Shown here: in pieces, positions 29,435 through 41,186 of the stretch
How positions within the stretch are numbered: position 1 is the first letter of the stretch
How the letters are laid out: each line of letters begins with the position of its first letter
Assembly: GCA_032433595.1 (NCBI GenBank)
Contig: JASWJB010000033.1
Coordinates: forward strand, 159,246-223,245
Reading direction: 5' to 3'
Length of the DNA stretch: 64,000 bases
Source of the DNA: Conoideocrella luteorostrata
Taxonomy: Eukaryota; Ascomycota; Sordariomycetes; Hypocreales; Clavicipitaceae
The notes under the pieces: model-generated
The model's input: only the letters and a program-made list of their open reading frames with translations
Databases searched by the model: none
Told to the model about the DNA's origin: nothing
Position numbers and translations under genes: made by a program

Positions 29435-32400
29435 TTACGCAGAAGAAGTTTCGGGTCTTCCACGTTGCGCAGCATAGAGCTTCGCGAATGCCCCATCAAC
29501 CCTCGCCAATAGCTCCTCTGGCTCACCATACTCAAGTAACACGCCCCCATCTAGAACAACAACCTTATCAAATCTACGGACACCAGCGAGACTGTGCGTT
29601 GCCATGATGACAGTGCTAGTCGCGAACTCCGACTCGACGATGGCTTCTATGTAAGATTCGGTGCTGGCGTCAACACTGTGAATTATGAGTGATACTTAGT
29701 GTCAGCTTTCATACTGCATCATAATATCTTTTTTCAGATATGAACGCAAGGAAAGGGAGGGTCTGTTACTTACCCGCTGCTCGGCTCATCTAAAACCAGG
29801 ACCGGGCTCTTGCGCAAAAGCGCACGGCCGAGGCAGAAAAGCTTTCTTTGCCCTTGGGACAAGAAGTCCTCTTCCATCTTCATATCAAGTATCGAGAATT
29901 CTAGAGGGTGAGAGGTCTCTGTGCTCTCCTTTGATCGGAAGATATCCCATAGCCCAACCTTCTGCAGGGCAGAGATGATATCAGTATCTGTAGCCTCGCC
30001 ATGCGGATCTGCATTCAGTCTGACACTCCCGCCAAACAAGAAAGGGTCTTGTGTGAGACATGTGAGCTTCTGACGGGTGACATCTTTAGGTACTAATGCA
30101 AGATCGACATCGTCTAAGACAATCCTCCCGGTAGACTCCTCGACCATGCCGAGCAGGGACAAGAGAAGTGAGGTTTTGCCACTTGCGGCACTTTCGTCAG
30201 CAAGTTTCTCGTCATAAGGCTTGTGGAATGATTTATGCTTGTGACTCTTACCTTCCTGTCCTGCCGCATATGGCAACTTTCTCCCCGGCCTGAATCGAAA
30301 TATCGATGTTGCGAAGCACGGGGTGACTGTGGTACGATGTTAGTTACTGCTTAAGACTGGTACAAAACTCCAGAAAGTATAAAGTGAGATATAGATACCC
30401 ATTATAGTGAGCCGACCAATTCTCAATGACCACCGATCCTTGAGACGGCCAGCCAGCGAGAATTATTGTATCCACAATCTCGCGAGGTTTCTCGGTCGGG
30501 GTATCCTCGGAGAAAGTCTTCACGCGCGAAATGGCACCCAAGGACGTCTCAAGCAAGGTCCAAAAGGTGATAAGGGCAGCCAAGGTATGGCCAAGATTCA
30601 TCATGCTTACAAGGGCAACGCCGAGGAAACCGGCGTCCAGTCTGCTGCGGAGCGTGACGCCTAGGGTGGTGAGCAGTATCGCGAGCCCAGCGACCGTCAG
30701 TCCCAATACAAGAGTCAGCCATCGTTGAATGCAGAGGAGCAAGTAATAAGGCTTCTGGGCCCTGTCGAGGAGGGCGAGATTCTTGGCGACGTGGTTGCTC
30801 GTCCAGCCATATGCTCGGATAGTGGCGATGCCCTGGAGAGACTCCAGAACGTGAGAATAGAGAGGTGCTTTCGCTTCCAGGCTAAGCCAGCATTAGCACT
30901 TCATATCGTTTGCAAGGTAACAATAGACATTACTCTAGTAGTCGAAGCTGCCGAGATGTCCTTAGATAAAAGCGCTGGAGGAAGAAGAGAGCACAGGCGA
31001 CGAAGGGCAGTACAGCTGCGAAGTAGGAAACAGCGACAATAGCCAACGCTGCAACTGCGAAACACGCAGCAAGCTCTATGATTCTCAAATTAGCGACCAG
31101 CTTCCTAGAGGATTGCGTTAAAGTTGCTACGGACGAAAGCTCGCATTCACGAGTGCCCCGGGTAGGGTCATGTCAACCAATTGCATGTCTTGACTGAATC
31201 TGTCATTGGAAAGAAATACTTATGGGTCAGTTCATGCTCTTGTTGTCTTACGCGAAAGTCATGACATACCTGTTAACCAACAACCCAGTGTCGGTCTTGG
31301 CCAGAAAAGACATTGGAGCTCTGTCGTTATCGTAAGAACATGAACAAGCCACTGGCAACAAGAAATTTGGCGATCTTACCGTATAACTGCCCGAAGCACA
31401 GTCAAGTGGAGAGACTGTGCAGACTTAGGTACGATCACCACGTACATGTAGCTGGGTATAATCATTAGCATAAGAGCCTCAAGCACGATGCTTGGTGAGC
31501 CTCCAGGCTTTGATAAGTCAGGTTCGACACCGTAGGAGAAGAACTCACTAGACCGCAGAAATAAGACCGGCCGCAGTAAAAACACCAAAAAGTGCATATA
31601 ACCCAAGCCAGTAGCCAAGCCGTGATGCTTGCGATCCGTCGCTGCTTTGGGCCCACAGTTTGATCCATGCATCTGTACTCACCCACATCAGCTTCGAGCC
31701 TGACTTACTGCGGCTGAGTGGCACTACACCAGCACTGATAAAAAGGGGCGGATCTGATGGAAGAAGCATGCTTACATTGCAGTGTGCTGAATGCCAAGTT
31801 TGAAGCTACGAAGATACCGAACAAGGCGAAGCTAAGCCATCCCAAAGACGAGAAGTAGTATAGATAGATGGACAAGTCTCCCATCTGTCTCTTGTCATCT
31901 TGTTTCGTGCTTGAGCTCTGAGTTTCACCAGCTGAAATTTTGGGGGGTGGGCTATTTCCTGAGGTCGCCGAAGAGCCATCGACTCCGGCTAGCTGTGGCG
32001 TAAGAGAAGCCATATTCTCAGATGAGCTCTGCTGAATGATTTGTCCTTGGTCGTCAAGTATGATAGTTTGGTCCGCGATGGCGCATAGGCTCACTGTGTG
32101 TGGTCGTTAGTAGGAACGACACGTTTTCCTAAACGCTATATGAGTTATTCAAAACTCATTGTTACTCACCAGAATGCGTGGCCAAAATGGCTGCCATACC
32201 CAGGTTCCGGATCAGTCCATCAGCTCCGAAGACACGCGTGGTGACGATGTCGTGGGTGACGGCATCCAGGCCGCTCAGTACATCATCCAGGACAGCGATA
32301 GGCTTGCGCGCATAAAGTGCCCGAGCTAATGTCTGTTTCATCTCAGTACGCAATACAATAGTCAGGCGCCGAGGCAGTTCTTACCAGGCGTTGCTTCTGC

Positions 32401-35098
32401 CCACCGCTGAGCGAAACCCCTTTGCTCCCGACATTCGTCGCGTCACCGTCCGATAACTGCAGCAAATCCACTTGTAAAGCGCAAGCGTGAATGACAGTAT
32501 TGTACCAAGCAGCGTCGAAGTCAGTTCCCGAGACAATGTTTTCTCGAACGGAGCCGTTCGAAACCCACGGGCTTTGGTCGCAATAGGCTAGCTCCTTGCT
32601 ACTGATCCAGACAGAGCCGCTGAATATGGTGGCTTCACCAAGAATGGCCTTTAGAATTGTAGACTTGCCACAGCCGACTGGTCCCAAAATGACTGTGAGA
32701 TGATGATTTTGGCCGATGCGCAGTGACATGTCTTTGATTACATGGCTGGAGCCTCGCCAGCCAACGGTAGCATTATGGATGATCACATGGTCGGAGTTGA
32801 AGATCGTACGAGGAAGAGGCTCTTTTGGTGTTGATTGCGGACGTTGAATCATTTCCACATGGTTATAGTCCGAAGGCGTCTGAATCGTGTCCGGCTTATC
32901 GTGGCTCTCCAGATTCGGTGTTTCTAGCGGGCATTCAGGCAGTCGTTTGTCGTCCCAGGACTCGCTAGCAAGAAAGTCCTGGATTCTCTGAAAGCAACCC
33001 AAGGCAGCATATGCCTGAGGAATCACCACTAACACTTTGCCTAGAGGCTCCATGAGGATGGAGAGAATGGACAGGGCTGTGACTGCCTGCGACACCGTCA
33101 CGAAGCTGTTACCCTGAACTTTGGCGGCGATTGCAAAGGTCGCAAATGTGAAGAACTGGGAGAACAGCGAGGGTAAGTTTACTGCGATTCATTAGTGCCT
33201 GCGCTGGATCAACTTAGAGGTGCGTTTCAGCTTACCAAGGCAGACATTGAAGCTGGACAAGCGCCTGAACCTCTTGGAGAGGTCCAGTTCAGTAACACGC
33301 ATACCCTGTATGAGAGATTCAAATTTGTTGCTAAGGCCCAACATCTTGACACTTCTCATTGAGCCTAGGGTATGTGCGGTAAAGTTAATCCTCGCTTGAA
33401 TCGCCTCGAGCCAGACCTTCTGGCGGGCGGTCACAAATCCAGCCGCTCTGACTGACATGGCGGTCGCCACTACCAAGTTGTAAAGTTAGCAACATAAACC
33501 AGTGAATAAAGCAGCCCTAAGCCCAATCGACATGAGTACATTGACTTACCCAACGCAACAATGACTGGAGTGACACAAACGGGACCGATTTGCATCTGTA
33601 AGAACCACACAGCAAAAGCAAGCTGAATGACACTCGCCCAACTTTCGGCGACCACAAGATGCCACGTCTCGCAGATTCGTTCGACGTCTGTACCAATCAA
33701 GGTCATCGCAGCAGAGTCACCGACTTGCGTCGACGGCGATTGCACAATCTTCTCATAGATCAGGGAAATGAGGCTGCCCCTAACCATAGCCATGAGTCGA
33801 AAGGAAAGGTGCTGATAAAAGCCTGTCGCGATCTTGTGACACACATATCTGATCAGCAGTAACCCGGGCGGGAGGAAGGAAGTTGAGCTTACGGGTATCC
33901 CTGTATGGACTAAAGCCACAGCACCGATCAGGCCATATCCTTGGTTCCAAGTTTGCTGACTGACGGGAGCCGATATAGTCTCTACGACTTGGTGGATGAG
34001 GAAAGGCTGTGCAAGGCTAAGTGCAACCAGACAAAGACGAGGAAGCGCAATCTTGGCAAGTTCCAACCGCCAGGCCGAAAGCGTAGCCAGAGCTAAGGCG
34101 TGCTTATGCCGATTGTGGTCTACTTTCTCTGATGCGTGAGGCAAGGTCAGACTACTAGACGACAATCTCGGTGCAAGAGGGCTCAAATAGTTCTCACTTT
34201 TAGTCATCCATCGAACCTGCAGCTCACTCGAAAGCTTGGAAGATCTAAGCTTTTCATTGATGGACTCGAGATCTTCAACGGCCAAGATGCGCCGGGATCC
34301 ATCAGAGAGCAAGTGTCTCAACCACCAAAAAAGCCCACGACTGAGGAGGCCACTTGTTGCCTCGCGTGAGAGGCTGCGATACGCACCAGCCAGGATTTTC
34401 CTTTTGTTCTTGGTCTCTAGGACGAGAATCAGAACCTGGACGGCTAGAGCAGCGGTGAGAATAGCTGGCATGAGATGTTTGTCCGATGCCAGGAGCCAGG
34501 CGGTTCGGACACGCGCGCCGTTCAGGGGTAGTGAAATTATGAGATAACCAGTGATTATGAAAGATGGCCGTGGGCTTTTGCCATGTTGAACTTGGGACAG
34601 GACAGCGAGGGCGAGAGCGGCGCAGAGGCTTAATACGGATGAGGCCAGGGTTGCGCGAGTGGTGAATTCATGTCCCGAAGCCCATAAGATCAGCAAGGCT
34701 AAGTTGAGTCCGGCATAAACGAGAGTCGATACCTGCCAGCCTATGTTAATGACATGAACTTGCTGACAATTACAAAAAAGTGCAACAACAAGGGTGACCG
34801 AGAAGTACGAACGAGTTTGAACATCGATAGAAGTAGTGATGGCCTCACAGCCGAAACGGCTTTGAAGATGCGGGCCACCTGAATAGGGGCAATCAGGAGA
34901 AACCCAGCCGACAGCGGGATAGACAGGACGCTTTCTTCGAATAGCACTATGGAAAGATCATGTCAGTGACTAGCCACAAAGTGTCGCATTATCATTCAAG
35001 GGCTGCGTACCTGTGAAGTCGAACCCGCCTCGACAAGACTCCGTGGCGACGGCTGGCCCGAAAAGCTCATCGTGGCAGACATTCGACACATTATTCAT
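29435..35098 (-). CDS. ABCC (MRP-type) full-size ABC transporter
   Basis: Seventeen exons, complement(29435..29675, 29774..30181, 30252..30326, 30399..30881, 30934..31075, 31135..31199, 31270..31320, 31380..31451, 31549..31672, 31776..32093, 32170..32332, 32385..33181, 33236..33469, 33550..33832, 33893..34732, 34813..34946, 35011..35098), encode 1505 residues. The layout is an N-terminal TMD0 (about 1-170), TMD1, NBD1, TMD2, NBD2. NBD1 has Walker A GPVGCGKST (about 693), Q-loop CDQSPWV, signature LSGGQKQR and Walker B IAVLDDVLSGLD. NBD2 has Walker A GRTGSGKT, restored across an intron, the LSQGQ signature and Walker B LVLDEPSSGVD. The family exports glutathione conjugates, toxins and secondary metabolites across plasma or vacuolar membranes. 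All phases close in frame and no disruption was found, so it looks functional. The 60-nt intron 33833-33892 has no stop and keeps frame, so retention would only add 20 residues. A transposon-like element lies about 300 bp upstream. Confidence 0.92.
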
Positions 35099-35397
35099 GC
35101 TGAGTCACAGAATATTGGGTGAAGCCTGGTGAATTATTGAACGTTTCGTTGGTAAAAGGGGGTGATCGTATGGCCAGGAAAGGATTTGGGTCCTCACGGT
35201 ACTGGTTCGGCTTTGAGCGAACACAAGGACACAAATGAAAGTGAAGCTTCCCGAGTCTCGTAAGGTGAAGAATGAAGAGAGGCACCGTGTAATCCTTTGA
35301 ACCAACGTGGGCACGTACGTAAGCAATGATCGGCCAACAAGAGCCTCTCACGGCTTCACCCCAGAATGGCAAGTCTGCTTGTGCGTTATCTTACGGC

Positions 35398-36053
35398 ACT
35401 GTCTGGAGTAGGTCTGTTGGGAGCTGTACGGACCAACTAGAAAGTGGAGACAGACCGAATTTTAGCTAGAGGTATTGATTCCCACCCCTCCCCCCGTAAA
35501 TTCCATACACAGTCATGGCGCGTTACTCCTCGCACACAAGAAATCCTGTCTTTTATTTAATTCTTTATATTCTGCGACCAGGCCACGGCTAATCCGCTCA
35601 AAAACGCGATTTCTAGTACTTTCTTTAATTATACACTTATTAACTATACAGACTATTTACTCCGGGTTACCTAACTAGCTTAATAGTCATAACTAGAATC
35701 TTATTAATACGTTAAAATTATTTAATAAAACCTATAAGCACTATAATTCTAGCAGGCTAAGCGCTATAACTCCAGCGGAGTAGGTGCTATAATTCTAGCG
35801 TGCTAGGCGCTATAACTCTAGCGGGCTATGCGATATACTTGTAGCGGGACGGGCGTGCAGGGAAGCCTATAGAAGGCAGGCCTCGTAATGTCACTAGAAA
35901 AGCGAATTAAATGCGCAGCTATCACAGCTGCCAGGTCCGTGCATACAAATTACGTGTGGAGGTGTGGGATGCGGGATATAGCTGTATTAAATTGTGGAGA
36001 CGAATTATTCCAAGTTGTTCCGTACAGCTCCCAACAGACCTACTCACTGTCTG
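35398..36053. mobile_element. Non-autonomous hAT-like terminal-inverted-repeat element
   Basis: A perfect 27-bp inverted repeat sits at 35406-35432 (starts GAGTAGGTCTGTTGGGAGC) and 36019-36045. It continues imperfectly inward for about 15 more bases (GACCAACTAGAA versus GAACAACTTGGAA). Immediately outside each end is the same 8-bp direct repeat ACTGTCTG, at 35398-35405 and 36046-36053. An 8-bp target duplication is characteristic of hAT-superfamily transposition. The 640-bp interior has no transposase frame, is A/T-rich and TA-rich (35560-35760), consistent with repeat-induced point mutation, and holds the 23-bp tandem array at 35737-35851. It lies in the upstream region of the ABC transporter gene. 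Confidence 0.85.
35737..35851. repeat. Five-copy 23-bp tandem array inside the hAT-like element
   Basis: Five head-to-tail units of exactly 23 bp start at 35737, 35760, 35783, 35806 and 35829, with consensus close to GCGCTATAACTCTAGCGGGC followed by TA. Units differ mainly at C/T and G/A positions, and the last unit is the most diverged. Subterminal repeats of this kind are common in hAT elements, where they can bind transposase; that role here is inference. Confidence 0.85.
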
Positions 36054-37130
36054 TACAGTACAGACCGCTCACAGCACATGCACCTTTCAATGGCAGTGGA
36101 TTCACACAAGAAAATAACAGTTACTCGTGCCACGCCCTACTTTTTTGGACTCGCAATGATGTTGCACGGCACGCACGCGTAGAGTAGCTAGTATGCTTAG
36201 ACTAAAGTAACAGCGCACACTCCTAGGGTAAAGCGCGTGCCCCTTTTCTCTAGTAGCTAAGGGGACTTCTCTCTTAGTATTATAATTATTAATTTGAGTA
36301 TTTATACTTATACTTATTATTTCTTAAAAAATACTTTACTTTTAAAAATTTTTAGTAAATTAAATTTTAGTAAAGCACCCCTTAGGTAGTAGTCAAAACG
36401 TGTAGCAACCCTCAGGTAGACCCACTAACCAACCCTCAGTTTGTGATATCCCTCTGCATCAACTATTTTATCAGCCCGGAGGTCTATCCAACTAGCCTTT
36501 CCTATGAAATGTGTATCAGCGGCGCAGTGCCATGACCAAATCATACCATTTACCACCTCTCCGCTTGTACGCTGTTCCAACGAAGAACCTAGAGGGAGGG
36601 GGGCATTGCAGCCCCATAGTGTTCGCTGCCTCACAATCTACAACTATTACCATTTGTGCCGACACAGTTATACAGCAGCAGTGACACAGGTTTGTAAATT
36701 GACCCAAGTGGTGTAGTTTCATGTATTGCCGCATTTTTAATCTGCAAAGAGCTATGTATGAGATTACTTGACCATCGTGCCGCATTTCATCATGCCGCGC
36801 GCATACAGTTTCCACGACGTATCAGTTATTACTCAAGCCAGAATAGCCTTGCGCAGCTGAAACTTTGGGTAAACGTACGACCCATTCGTCATGTCGGGCT
36901 CCGCTCCATAAAATCGTACTACAAGTCCCCAAGCACGTCAGCCTCGGGCCAAATGCCAAGAATCGTACCTCGCGAAGATATTGTGCACTTACAACTGATT
37001 GAGAAGGGTCCTCCGCCCGCACTAACAGGCAGCCAACTACAGAATCCAGATTGATTAGCTACCGAACCCATCAACGAGCTCCAAAAAATAAAAACAAAAA
37101 ATAAAACAAAACAAAACCCAAAATATTTGC
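36054..37130. other. Intergenic, A/T-rich block
   Basis: No gene was seen. Positions 36270-36380 are strongly A/T- and TA-rich, with two related segments TAAAGCGCGTGCCCCTT (36221-36237) and TAAAGCACCCCTTAG (36372-36386) on its borders. This could be another decayed repeat, but no target duplication was found. Confidence 0.5.
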
Positions 37131-38544
37131 CTACTTGTTGGTCCAGTTTGACGGTGGCTTGACATCGCTTGCTTGGATCAGCATGTCAAACGGCCCGTCT
37201 GGCCCATCGGATATGGGCTTCCCATTCGGAAATGTCAAGTTGCTGCGATCACCCAATGCATATCGGTGGAGCGGATTGGAAATCAAGAGCTGCTCCTCGT
37301 TGTATACAGTAAGGCTCCAGAATCCGCCTGCAGACACGCGGGGTCTCCGTGAAAATCGGAGGACGTATGCCTCCTCCGCGCCTAGCTTGAGATTAGGTGA
37401 GGATGGGTATATCGTTTGGTCCTTCGTGAGGGCGAGATAGCCGTGTGCGGCGATGAAGTACCGCGACTGATAGAAGGACCCGTAGTTGCCGATGGGCTGA
37501 TTGAGGGTCCAATTGTTTCCTAGGCTCTGCACAAAGCCTGGAGTTGTGAGGAGCGCCGTCACCGACGCGTTGGCTGCGGCTGAGGCGGCCGTCAAGTTGG
37601 TGTTGTTGGGCTGAGTGAACGAGCCTTGCGAAATTCCCGCATTGCCCAGGAGATTGGTAACCCAAGTCCTGTCTTGAGGCACAACAGGCTGGTTGTATCT
37701 CGAGAAGGCCGCTGTCAGTCTCAAAATAGAAAGTTCCACGGAAACGTTGGGTCCAGGCCGGTAATACGGATCCGTGAAAATGCTGAGGTTGAATGATGGA
37801 ATGTTTGATCCATCAGAACGGAGACGCTCTGATACTGACGTCTTGTTTTGATATCGGTGAACATTGTCTATGTCCCCCGCCTTGTTCTTGACGAGAATCC
37901 GTGTAACTGATATGCCGTATGGGGTGGGAAGATTGATATATGCCCGATACCCACCACGGACATTTTTGTACTGCACGCCAGGGTTTTCTGCATCATATCT
38001 CACCAAATATGTACCCGGCTTGTCCTTTCCGATGCTACCAATGTTGGCGACGTTATTTCCATATCTGCACATGGCTAGTTAGTTTCGACGAAAGTCAATC
38101 GCCTCCAATCTAGAGAACTGGCTTACAAGTCAAGAAACGACTGTGCCCAATATCGGTCATCAAATTCGGGACATGTAAAGTTCACGTCTGAGCTAGACAC
38201 GTCCACAAACCAGGTTGAATATACTGTGTCTACGTTTGGTCGGACGACTGCAATTGCGCCAGGCGAGGCGAGCTGTCTCTGGTGGTAAAGTTTATTTGTT
38301 TGGGCTGAGTTGTTATAAGGTTCGAGGAAGACGCCGTACGCGTAGAGTGGATAGCCGTACTTGATGCCGATGTTAGAGAATAATAAGGCCAGATTCAATC
38401 AGTCGCTCCATCTCTCCGTCTTCGCACCTCATACGCAAATGCCAGTGCATTCTGAGCACAATTCTGGAGCAGACATGTTTCCCGAAATGCCAGTGCAACT
38501 GCCAAGGAGCCAGACAGCAAGGTACCCGTGCCGAGAACTTTCAT
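37131..38544 (-). CDS. Secreted DUF1254/DUF1214 domain protein
   Basis: Three exons, complement(37131..38064, 38127..38359, 38428..38544), encode 427 residues. A signal peptide is visible (MKVLGTGTLLSGSLAVALAF). DUF1254 spans about residues 35-160 (YGYPLYAYGVF, RPNVDTVYSTWFVDVS). DUF1214 forms the C-terminal ~110 residues (FWSLTVYNEEQLL, FPNGKPISDGPDGP). Introns are 68 nt (CTCTAAC branch) and 62 nt. The DUF1254+DUF1214 pair is widespread in bacteria and fungi as a secreted or periplasmic protein of unknown activity. Several N-x-S/T sites fit glycosylation during secretion. The gene runs in the same direction as the zinc-cluster regulator upstream, with about 900 bp between them. Confidence 0.85.
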
Positions 38545-39452: not shown

Positions 39453-41186
39453 CTATTGGGAAACTTTAAGAATGCCCTGATTAGCAGGGCGCTTACGAAA
39501 TGTGGCCGAAGGCTGAAGCCCGAAAAAAAAAAAAATCAGGTACGCAGAAGCAAGGGTATTAAACATACCTTAGGCTTTTCAATTGCACTCTTGACGCCAA
39601 GTTCCATCCCGATATACTTCAGGCGACCTCGAATCCAAGCACGCTGAGCATCAGTCGTGTAATCATGGGCCTCCATGGCAGATAATGGCCAGATTAAGAG
39701 AAGTCCAGGAAGCGTTTTCGCGGCATTATTGTCCCCGCAGCCATATCCAGAGAGAACAGAGTTCTCTAATAAATCCATGCGATTGTTAAACCAACCGAGC
39801 AGGTACGGGACTGATGCCATAATGTCGCCCATTTCCTCACCCCACAATTTTGTAACGGCGGCATACTCTATCGTTGTGCGATAGTCGTTTGGCCAGGTCA
39901 GTAGCGCCACGCATCGAACCATGATGGAACTGGCCACGATGCGGCAAGCTCGCATATTGTTCAATAAACTTGCTGCCCACACATTCTTATATATGTCTAT
40001 GCAACCTGGATACACTTCAGCCGTGGAGTAATCTCCTCGAGGGACTCGGTACTCCCAGGCCACGGTCTTCCAACTATAGCTCTCGGGCAGGCTATGTGTC
40101 CATTCAATCAGCTGTTGATCCATTGCCTTGCATCTGTGAACAAGTTTCCGTAGAAGGCTCATGTTATCTGCAGTCGGGGGCTTGCTCAAAAGATCTGTAG
40201 CATCCTTTTTTAGCTTGCACACCACCAAACTTAATTCTTGAGCGTGAAGCACTGGTTCATGATAAACTAGCTTGCTTGGTACTTCGATCCCAACGTCAAG
40301 CTGAATACCGGCACTCATTGCGCGAACAATCTGGAGAGCGAGGTTAGGAGCTGAAACGCTAAAATGACGGAACAGTGAGGTAGAGCCTACGCCTTGGGTC
40401 CTGCAGGTAACAAACAGATCTAATCCCGACTTTGTCTGCAATTGGGAAGAGCCTCTGGCACGAATGAGCAATAAAAGGCCTCGAATATGCGAACCCCACG
40501 CGACGGTGCCGACACTTCTTGCCGTGATAGTCTCGAAAAGGCACAGAAGGTAAACTGCGGCCAGTGTTGCGTCATCCTTCATCATCGCTGGGTTTCGCAG
40601 CGCTGTTGCTGTTGTGGAGAGGGCCTGTGTATAATTGGCCAATGCCAGCTTATCGTATTCATCCTTATGGCTAATGGCGTTGTTGAGAGAGGCAACAGCA
40701 CAAGCCTCAAAGGCGTGTCTGAGATGTGGAAGATGATGACGGACCTTCAACAGCGGTATGAGAAAGTCGAGGAATCCACGCATGCCGCCGCTGTGGGGGA
40801 TGAGACAATAGTTGGCGACAAAGTGGCATGATGCTTTCTCCTCGAGAGGAATTGTAGGGGACTCGATAATTAATTGTTTGGTGCTGCTTGAAGATGTCTT
40901 GATTTTGACAGCGGTCGGCATTTTCCGTCTACTTGAAACTCCGTGCGCTGCAGCCGATATGTCGGCATTGTCTAATGGACCTGGGCATCGTAACTGTGCT
41001 TTTTGACACTGGCCGCAACTGGGATGTTGAAGGTCACACTTGGAGGCACGTCGTGCGTCAGTTTGATGATATCAATCAATTCCCATCGTCTTACGTGAGT
41101 GGGAGCCAAAAGTTGAGGGCCACACGCACCTTGATTCGGCGAATCTTGCAACTTTGGCAAGCTCGCGACGTCCGGCGACGAGCCAT
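39453..41186 (-). CDS. Zn2Cys6 transcription factor (Fungal_trans_2 type)
   Basis: The model is complement(39453..39512, 39569..41038, 41130..41186). Exon 1 (MARRRTSRACQSCKIRRIK) and exon 2 are joined across a 91-nt intron to give a complete zinc cluster CQSCKIRRIKC..CGQCQKAQLRC (C-x2-C-x6-C..C-x2-C-x6-C) at about residues 10-37. The remainder is the helical regulatory domain of the Fungal_trans_2 family, ending YIGMELGVKSAIEKPK. A good intron (donor GTATGT, 13-T tract, acceptor TTCAG) near the end leads to a 20-codon last exon; reading through instead stops at 39536 after 10 more residues. The DNA-binding target is unknown. The DUF1254/DUF1214 gene downstream or the ABC transporter could be regulated by it; this is inference from position only. 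Confidence 0.83.

Follow-up and report, generated by a model that had tools for sequence, protein, structure and literature searches.

The 64-kb stretch of Conoideocrella luteorostrata DNA analyzed here (the window) contains a MITE, that is, a short element with inverted ends and a target duplication, without a transposase and present in several copies. It is probably of the Mutator (MULE) type and non-autonomous. Mutator is preferred over hAT because three sister copies have 9-bp duplications. Thus, of the hAT-like miniature transposon proposed in the first-pass annotation, the miniature inverted-repeat transposon with a target duplication stands, whereas the hAT label lacks support.

The element and its surroundings

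The inverted-ended element comprises 640 bp (35406-36045) and is flanked on both sides by ACTGTCTG. Its left end, GAGTAGGTCTGTTGGGAGCTGTACGGA..., starts at 35406, and the reverse complement of GAGTAGGTCTGTTGGGAGCTGTACGGA ends at 36045. The sequence is as the first-pass annotation described it, with a perfectly complementary outer 27 bp of the terminal arms (35406-35432 and 36019-36045) and identical octamers directly outside; the imperfect inward continuation is also present, the whole 38-nt arms agreeing at 92%. Inward of the first 40 bp, the two arms become complementary again, in degenerate form and at a mirrored distance (TCCCACACCCCCAC...), as far as about 115 bp. The score of this subterminal repeat was matched by 1 of 500 shuffled sequences for the window copy and by none of 500 for each of two sister copies, C140 and C3. 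The terminal repeat gives the impression of having been long, about 115 bp, and of having decayed since. The features are as follows.

29770..35098, minus strand: ABC transporter gene next to the element (extent approximate, based on open frames)
35398..35405, plus strand: left target duplication ACTGTCTG (as the 9-mer CACTGTCTG, 35397-35405)
35406..35443, plus strand: left terminal inverted repeat, beginning GAGTAGGTCTGTTGGGAGC
35480..35519, plus strand: left arm (TCCCAC...) of the degenerate subterminal inverted repeat, into which the terminal repeat continues inward
35735..35848, plus strand: tandem array in the interior (5.0 copies of a 23-bp unit; 76% matches)
35930..35969, minus strand: right arm of the subterminal inverted repeat
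36008..36045, minus strand: right terminal inverted repeat
36046..36053, plus strand: right target duplication ACTGTCTG (as the 9-mer CACTGTCTG, 36045-36053, sharing the last arm base)

The window was scanned for exact 8-bp direct repeats with at least 12 of 16 matching inverted ends, 150 to 5000 bp apart. The element, whose ends match at 16 of 16 positions, is the sole match in the 64 kb, and 10 mononucleotide shuffles gave two matches in total. When exact repeats of 9 or 10 bp lying wholly external to the ends were required, no match was obtained in the window. Among frames of at least 90 aa, only one touches the element, a 104-aa frame that exits through the right end; a transposase-sized frame is absent from this set, as had been noted from the sequence at first. 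The number of units in the 23-bp array varies from copy to copy. An Rfam scan of 34900-36600 and a tRNA scan of the 64-kb window returned nothing.

The element had been placed about 300 bp upstream of a transporter start codon, and we find a distance of 308 bp to an ATG at 35098 on the minus strand, where a putative first exon reads MNNVSNVCHDELFGPAVATESCRGGFDFT. Later frames of this gene have recognizable ABC domains; the 495-aa frame after the putative first exon has none. An effect of the element on transporter expression is conjecture. The minus-strand neighbors at 37131-38398 and 39536-41071 carry DUF1254/DUF1214 and a fungal transcription-factor domain, respectively.

Related copies, their ends and their composition

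DNA searches of the same genome (46.4 Mb, 620 contigs) revealed related sequence at at least 23 other loci, hence at least 24 including the window copy. The absence of any second copy, named in the first-pass annotation as telling against it, was thus not borne out. Three of the 23 other loci (C140, C3, and C7) keep both ends within different, duplicated flanks, so that four two-ended copies are available. Because related copies lie at dispersed loci elsewhere in the genome, the element is mobile DNA. We consider it practically out of the question that the structure is no transposon but an inverted repeat of chance or segmental origin, beside which a direct repeat stands by coincidence. Nothing was found in favor of this, and both the dispersed relatives with different, duplicated flanks and the uniqueness of the structure in the window speak against it.

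Identity to the window copy is 84% for C140, 87 to 88% in pieces for C3, which has an internal deletion, and 80% for C7, whose right end is shortened. C37 (69%) has lost its ends, and C109 (79%) is a partial copy. With divergences of 12 to 31% from its longest relatives, the element appears to be old. Nine of the 24 loci are mere pieces of about 40 to 100 bp (C52, C290, C460, C49, C2, C68, C435, C554, and C220); a 64-bp piece about 1 kb from the C109 fragment was not counted as a separate locus. More partial loci came from searches with other copies and with both ends. C42 and C15 retain the right end only, and no left partner was found by duplication in their fetched stretches. In C69 (801 bp), the left end alone is visible by eye.

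Some of these remnants recur in a patterned way. A piece of the interior (about element positions 180 to 260; about 40 to 100 bp) stands alone at seven loci (C52:150881, C290:18417, C68:105475, C460:3803, C435:27563, C49:149639, and C2:284906) and is perhaps part of another repeat family. Single left ends of 75 to 100 bp, for which no right end was found, occur at C4:120913, C618:5944, C7:15077, and C69:83439. They break off at similar points and are either truncated relics or ends of other elements. A similar single end exists at C6:117025, the inner part of which matches the right side of the family.

Both ends of the window copy, C140, and C3 start with GAGT, as does the left end of C7. Two versions follow this start: (i) A(A/G)GTCTGTTGGGAGC in the window copy and C3 and, with the last two bases different, in C42, and (ii) CTCC(C/T)TATTCGGAGC or CCCCCTGTTCGGGGC in C140 and C7. 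The two ends within one element are alike at 30 of 31 positions (window copy, C140, and C3). Between elements, agreement is 23 to 25 of 31 for the window copy and C140 and 29 to 31 of 31 for the window copy and C3; subfamily descent thus explains the end likeness as well as arm conversion would.

When the boundary is set at GAGT...ACTC, the flanks of C140 (GTCAACATC/GTCAACATC) form an exact 9-bp duplication, and those of C3 (TTCCTACAG/TTTCTACAG) agree at eight of nine positions. C7, with its shortened right end, lies between GCTGAAGTC/GCTGAAGTC, again exact over 9 bp. Read strictly, the duplication of the window copy is 8 bp long when counted from the edges of the maximal inverted repeat. The copy also holds the 9-bp direct repeat CACTGTCTG, the right-hand instance of which begins with the final base of the right arm. 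Its duplication is therefore ambiguous between 8 and 9 bp. There are two explanations for this pattern: (i) an original duplication of 9 bp in which one C of an adjacent pair was deleted at the right junction, or (ii) an 8-bp duplication. The uninterrupted site expected is CACTGTCTGTACAG in both cases. Of 400,000 random pairs of 9-mers taken from the window, 50 had eight or more positions in common, including 9 that were identical.

The interior had been described as A/T- and TA-rich, as after repeat-induced point mutation (RIP), and a RIP index run bears this out: TpA/ApT is 1.48, (CpA+TpG)/(ApC+GpT) is 0.81, and the composite is 0.67, versus -0.57 for the window. Only 2 of 396 sliding 640-bp windows reach the composite of the element, and both overlap it. 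The 23-bp tandem units of the family (35735-35848) inherently account for some of the TpA richness. Among the other copies, the composite is 0.36 in C3, 0.27 in C140, 0.23 in C7, and 0.05 in C37, and it is below zero in C109, C42, C15a, and C5; the stretches used for C37, C109, C42, C15a, and C5 contain some flank. Pooled over seven copies, changed cells amount to 45/366 for CpA, 42/428 for CpG, 25/413 for CpC, and 28/482 for CpT. The odds ratio of CpA versus CpC+CpT changes is 2.2, with a P value of 0.0003 that is optimistic because the cells share ancestry. C37 alone shows no CpA preference (CpA 6, CpT 14, CpG 11, CpC 8). RIP on the MITE is likely, though mild, and we infer RIP as the cause of the composition.

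Directly to the right of the element, 36054-36700 is AT-rich and RIP-like (composite 0.58) and is possibly another decayed repeat. A second RIP-like stretch, with a composite above zero and up to 0.55, lies at 481-1600 of the window.

Superfamily assignment

MULEs have duplications of 8 to 11 bp and typically long inverted repeats, according to the accessible passages of PMC6446971. The duplications of the family fall within this range (9 bp in C140 and C7, eight of nine positions in C3, and 8 or 9 bp in the window copy), and the inverted ends are long, namely, 38 bp at 92% with the subterminal continuation to about 115 bp. This reading draws on only four two-ended copies, of which C7 has a shortened right end and C3 a mismatched duplication. 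The 8-bp duplication that had been regarded as a mark of hAT lies equally inside the 8- to 11-bp range given for Mutator-like elements in those passages. Furthermore, VdMULE1, a fungal MULE, has an 8-bp duplication in the part of PMC3441728 that is accessible; duplication length alone thus cannot separate MULE from hAT in one copy.

Insertion by a hAT transposase with an 8-bp staggered cut would account for the perfect 8-bp repeat outside the maximal inverted ends of the window copy, which, read strictly, is the likeness to hAT MITEs and was the sole evidence for hAT membership; hAT transposase domains are also present in the genome (eight PF05699 matches). However, the three other two-ended copies have 9-bp duplications (two exact, one with eight of nine positions), and BLAST gave no match to the MITE at any of the eight hAT loci, each taken as a stretch of roughly 3.2 kb (L027-L034). 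In addition, ACTGTCTG misfits the hAT target consensus, nTnnnnAn. At the three hAT loci, out of eight, that were fetched more widely, the ends were not definable; hence this genome offered no hAT yardstick. For hAT, the accessible part of PMC2874221 gives an 8-bp duplication and repeats of 5 to 27 bp, a length that the inverted repeat of the element exceeds. We regard a hAT MITE as very unlikely.

KDZ elements make 8-bp duplications, and a MITE of another superfamily with 8- to 9-bp duplications, such as Merlin or KDZ/Zisupton, is an equally poor prospect. Merlin elements have 8- or 9-bp duplications and repeats of 24 to 462 bp, but their ends start with GG (PMC8101967, accessible passages), versus GA here (GAGT in the window copy, C140, C3, and the left end of C7). 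No PF12762 (Merlin) match exists in the genome, the control being positive in 1 of 14 genomes, a prokaryote. Nor is there a PF18758 (KDZ) match in the genome, which weighs little since no control gave any match.

Tc1/mariner elements make 2-bp TA duplications, and so do mimp and mFot5, versus the 8 to 9 bp of our element. Like the element, mimp and mFot5 of Fusarium oxysporum are small, non-coding, and promoter-proximal and have inverted ends; unlike it, both are related to Tc1/mariner, mFot5 being linked to Fot5 transposases and mimps being miniature Impalas (PMC3599309, in part). The same passages record 55 mimps on one chromosome of F. oxysporum. The ascomycete MULEs Hop, VdMULE, Phantom-Ca, and Mutyl share with the element duplications of 8 to 10 bp and long, partly degenerate inverted ends (PMC6446971 and PMC3441728, excerpts); in contrast to them, it has no transposase, measures about 0.6 kb, and has ends that begin with GAGT rather than GG. 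Within this group, Phantom-Ca has a 9-bp duplication and 34-bp repeats (PMC6446971), and Hop1 and the VdMULEs have the terminal consensus GGNAA (PMC3441728), as excerpted. Three terminal strings of the family were found in no paper by a literature search that mostly covered papers available without subscription. A description of a GAGT-ended family was likewise not recognized in titles, beginnings of abstracts, and passages on fungal Mutator MITEs or on the species, a scope to which most subscription papers do not belong.

The element was presumably moved by a MULE transposase whose gene lies elsewhere or has since been lost. This enzyme would have recognized the long inverted ends starting with GAGT, cut the element out, and inserted it here by a 9-bp staggered cut. 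The gap would have been repaired into a direct repeat, which is read today either as 8 bp or as 9 bp minus a base at the right junction. Thereafter, the element would have stayed, diverged, and taken C-to-T changes, partly of the RIP type.

Mutator transposons of the genome and the search for a partner

PF10551, the MULE domain, is present at eight loci of the genome. Seven of them were examined for ends and duplications as stretches of 8.9 to 9.9 kb; the stretch of the eighth, C282, stops short of the domain. Four of the seven MULEs (C222, C46, C75, and C91) are whole from end to end, with lengths of 2934 to 3038 bp, long inverted ends, and exact 9-bp duplications (TCAGAAGTG, AAAAAATGC, TAATGCGGC, and GTTGGCTTC). 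This is also the duplication length of the sister copies of the MITE and speaks for the Mutator type. In three of the four, end palindromes also passed the scan at 8 and 10 bp, and the outermost pair was used. Their ends begin with GGGAG, GGGCA, GGCTT, and GGGCA, and their MULE domains contain stop codons. C228, C185, and C315 yielded no ends with duplications, even at a looser setting. The four whole MULEs lie at the following positions of the fetched stretches.

L061, 3929-6862: whole MULE
L063, 3903-6940: whole MULE
L065, 3949-6924: whole MULE
L066, 3976-6942: whole MULE

These four are more AT-rich than their flanks, as after RIP, with composites from 0.07 (C222) to 1.33 (C75, 20.5% GC).

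A BLAST comparison of the MITE with the seven domain-holding MULE stretches gave no match, and the four whole MULEs were rejected as partners, their ends beginning with GGG or GGC versus GAGT in the MITE. A degenerate 31-nt end pattern, run over the whole genome with up to three mismatches, gave 12 matches (reversed control, 0), no two of which lie 2 to 6 kb apart. With up to nine mismatches in 21 fetched loci, 13 matches were obtained, made up of 5 known ends and 8 weak ones (eight or nine mismatches); the weak ones were taken for noise because the reversed pattern gave 4. At the single ends of C4, C618, C7 (15 kb), C6, and C5, 5.9 to 9.6 kb were searched inward, and the few near-matches to the flanking 9-mer, attributable to chance, never lay beside end-like sequence. 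The best candidate for a second end, located 4.9 kb away from the single end of C6, matches at 22 of 31 positions (best of 60 shuffles, 20) but was rejected: it has no matching duplication and falls inside a 434-aa open frame that is polyketide-synthase-like by eye. None of the frames between the two is transposase-like by eye. PF03108 has no match in the genome, nor had the controls.

No partner was thus seen in the assembly (seven of eight PF10551 loci), which does not mean that none exists; from its sequence the element may be called MULE-MITE-like, with membership unproven. It is conceivable, although unlikely, that the GAGT-ended family is an orphan Mutator-related lineage outside the recognizable MULEs of this genome, with ends kept alike, e.g., by arm conversion, and outer bases differing between subfamilies. 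If so, it would be a separate lineage with its own end recognition, the transposase of which is lost or is not recognized by PF10551.

Most likely, however, the element belongs to an ordinary, old MITE family of the Mutator type, which adds one such family to C. luteorostrata and is of modest significance. Should strains differ in carrying the insertion, they would provide a natural test of whether an insertion of this kind changes a transporter promoter. The sister copies, which shift the element from hAT to the Mutator type, show that superfamilies should not be assigned from one 8-bp duplication alone.
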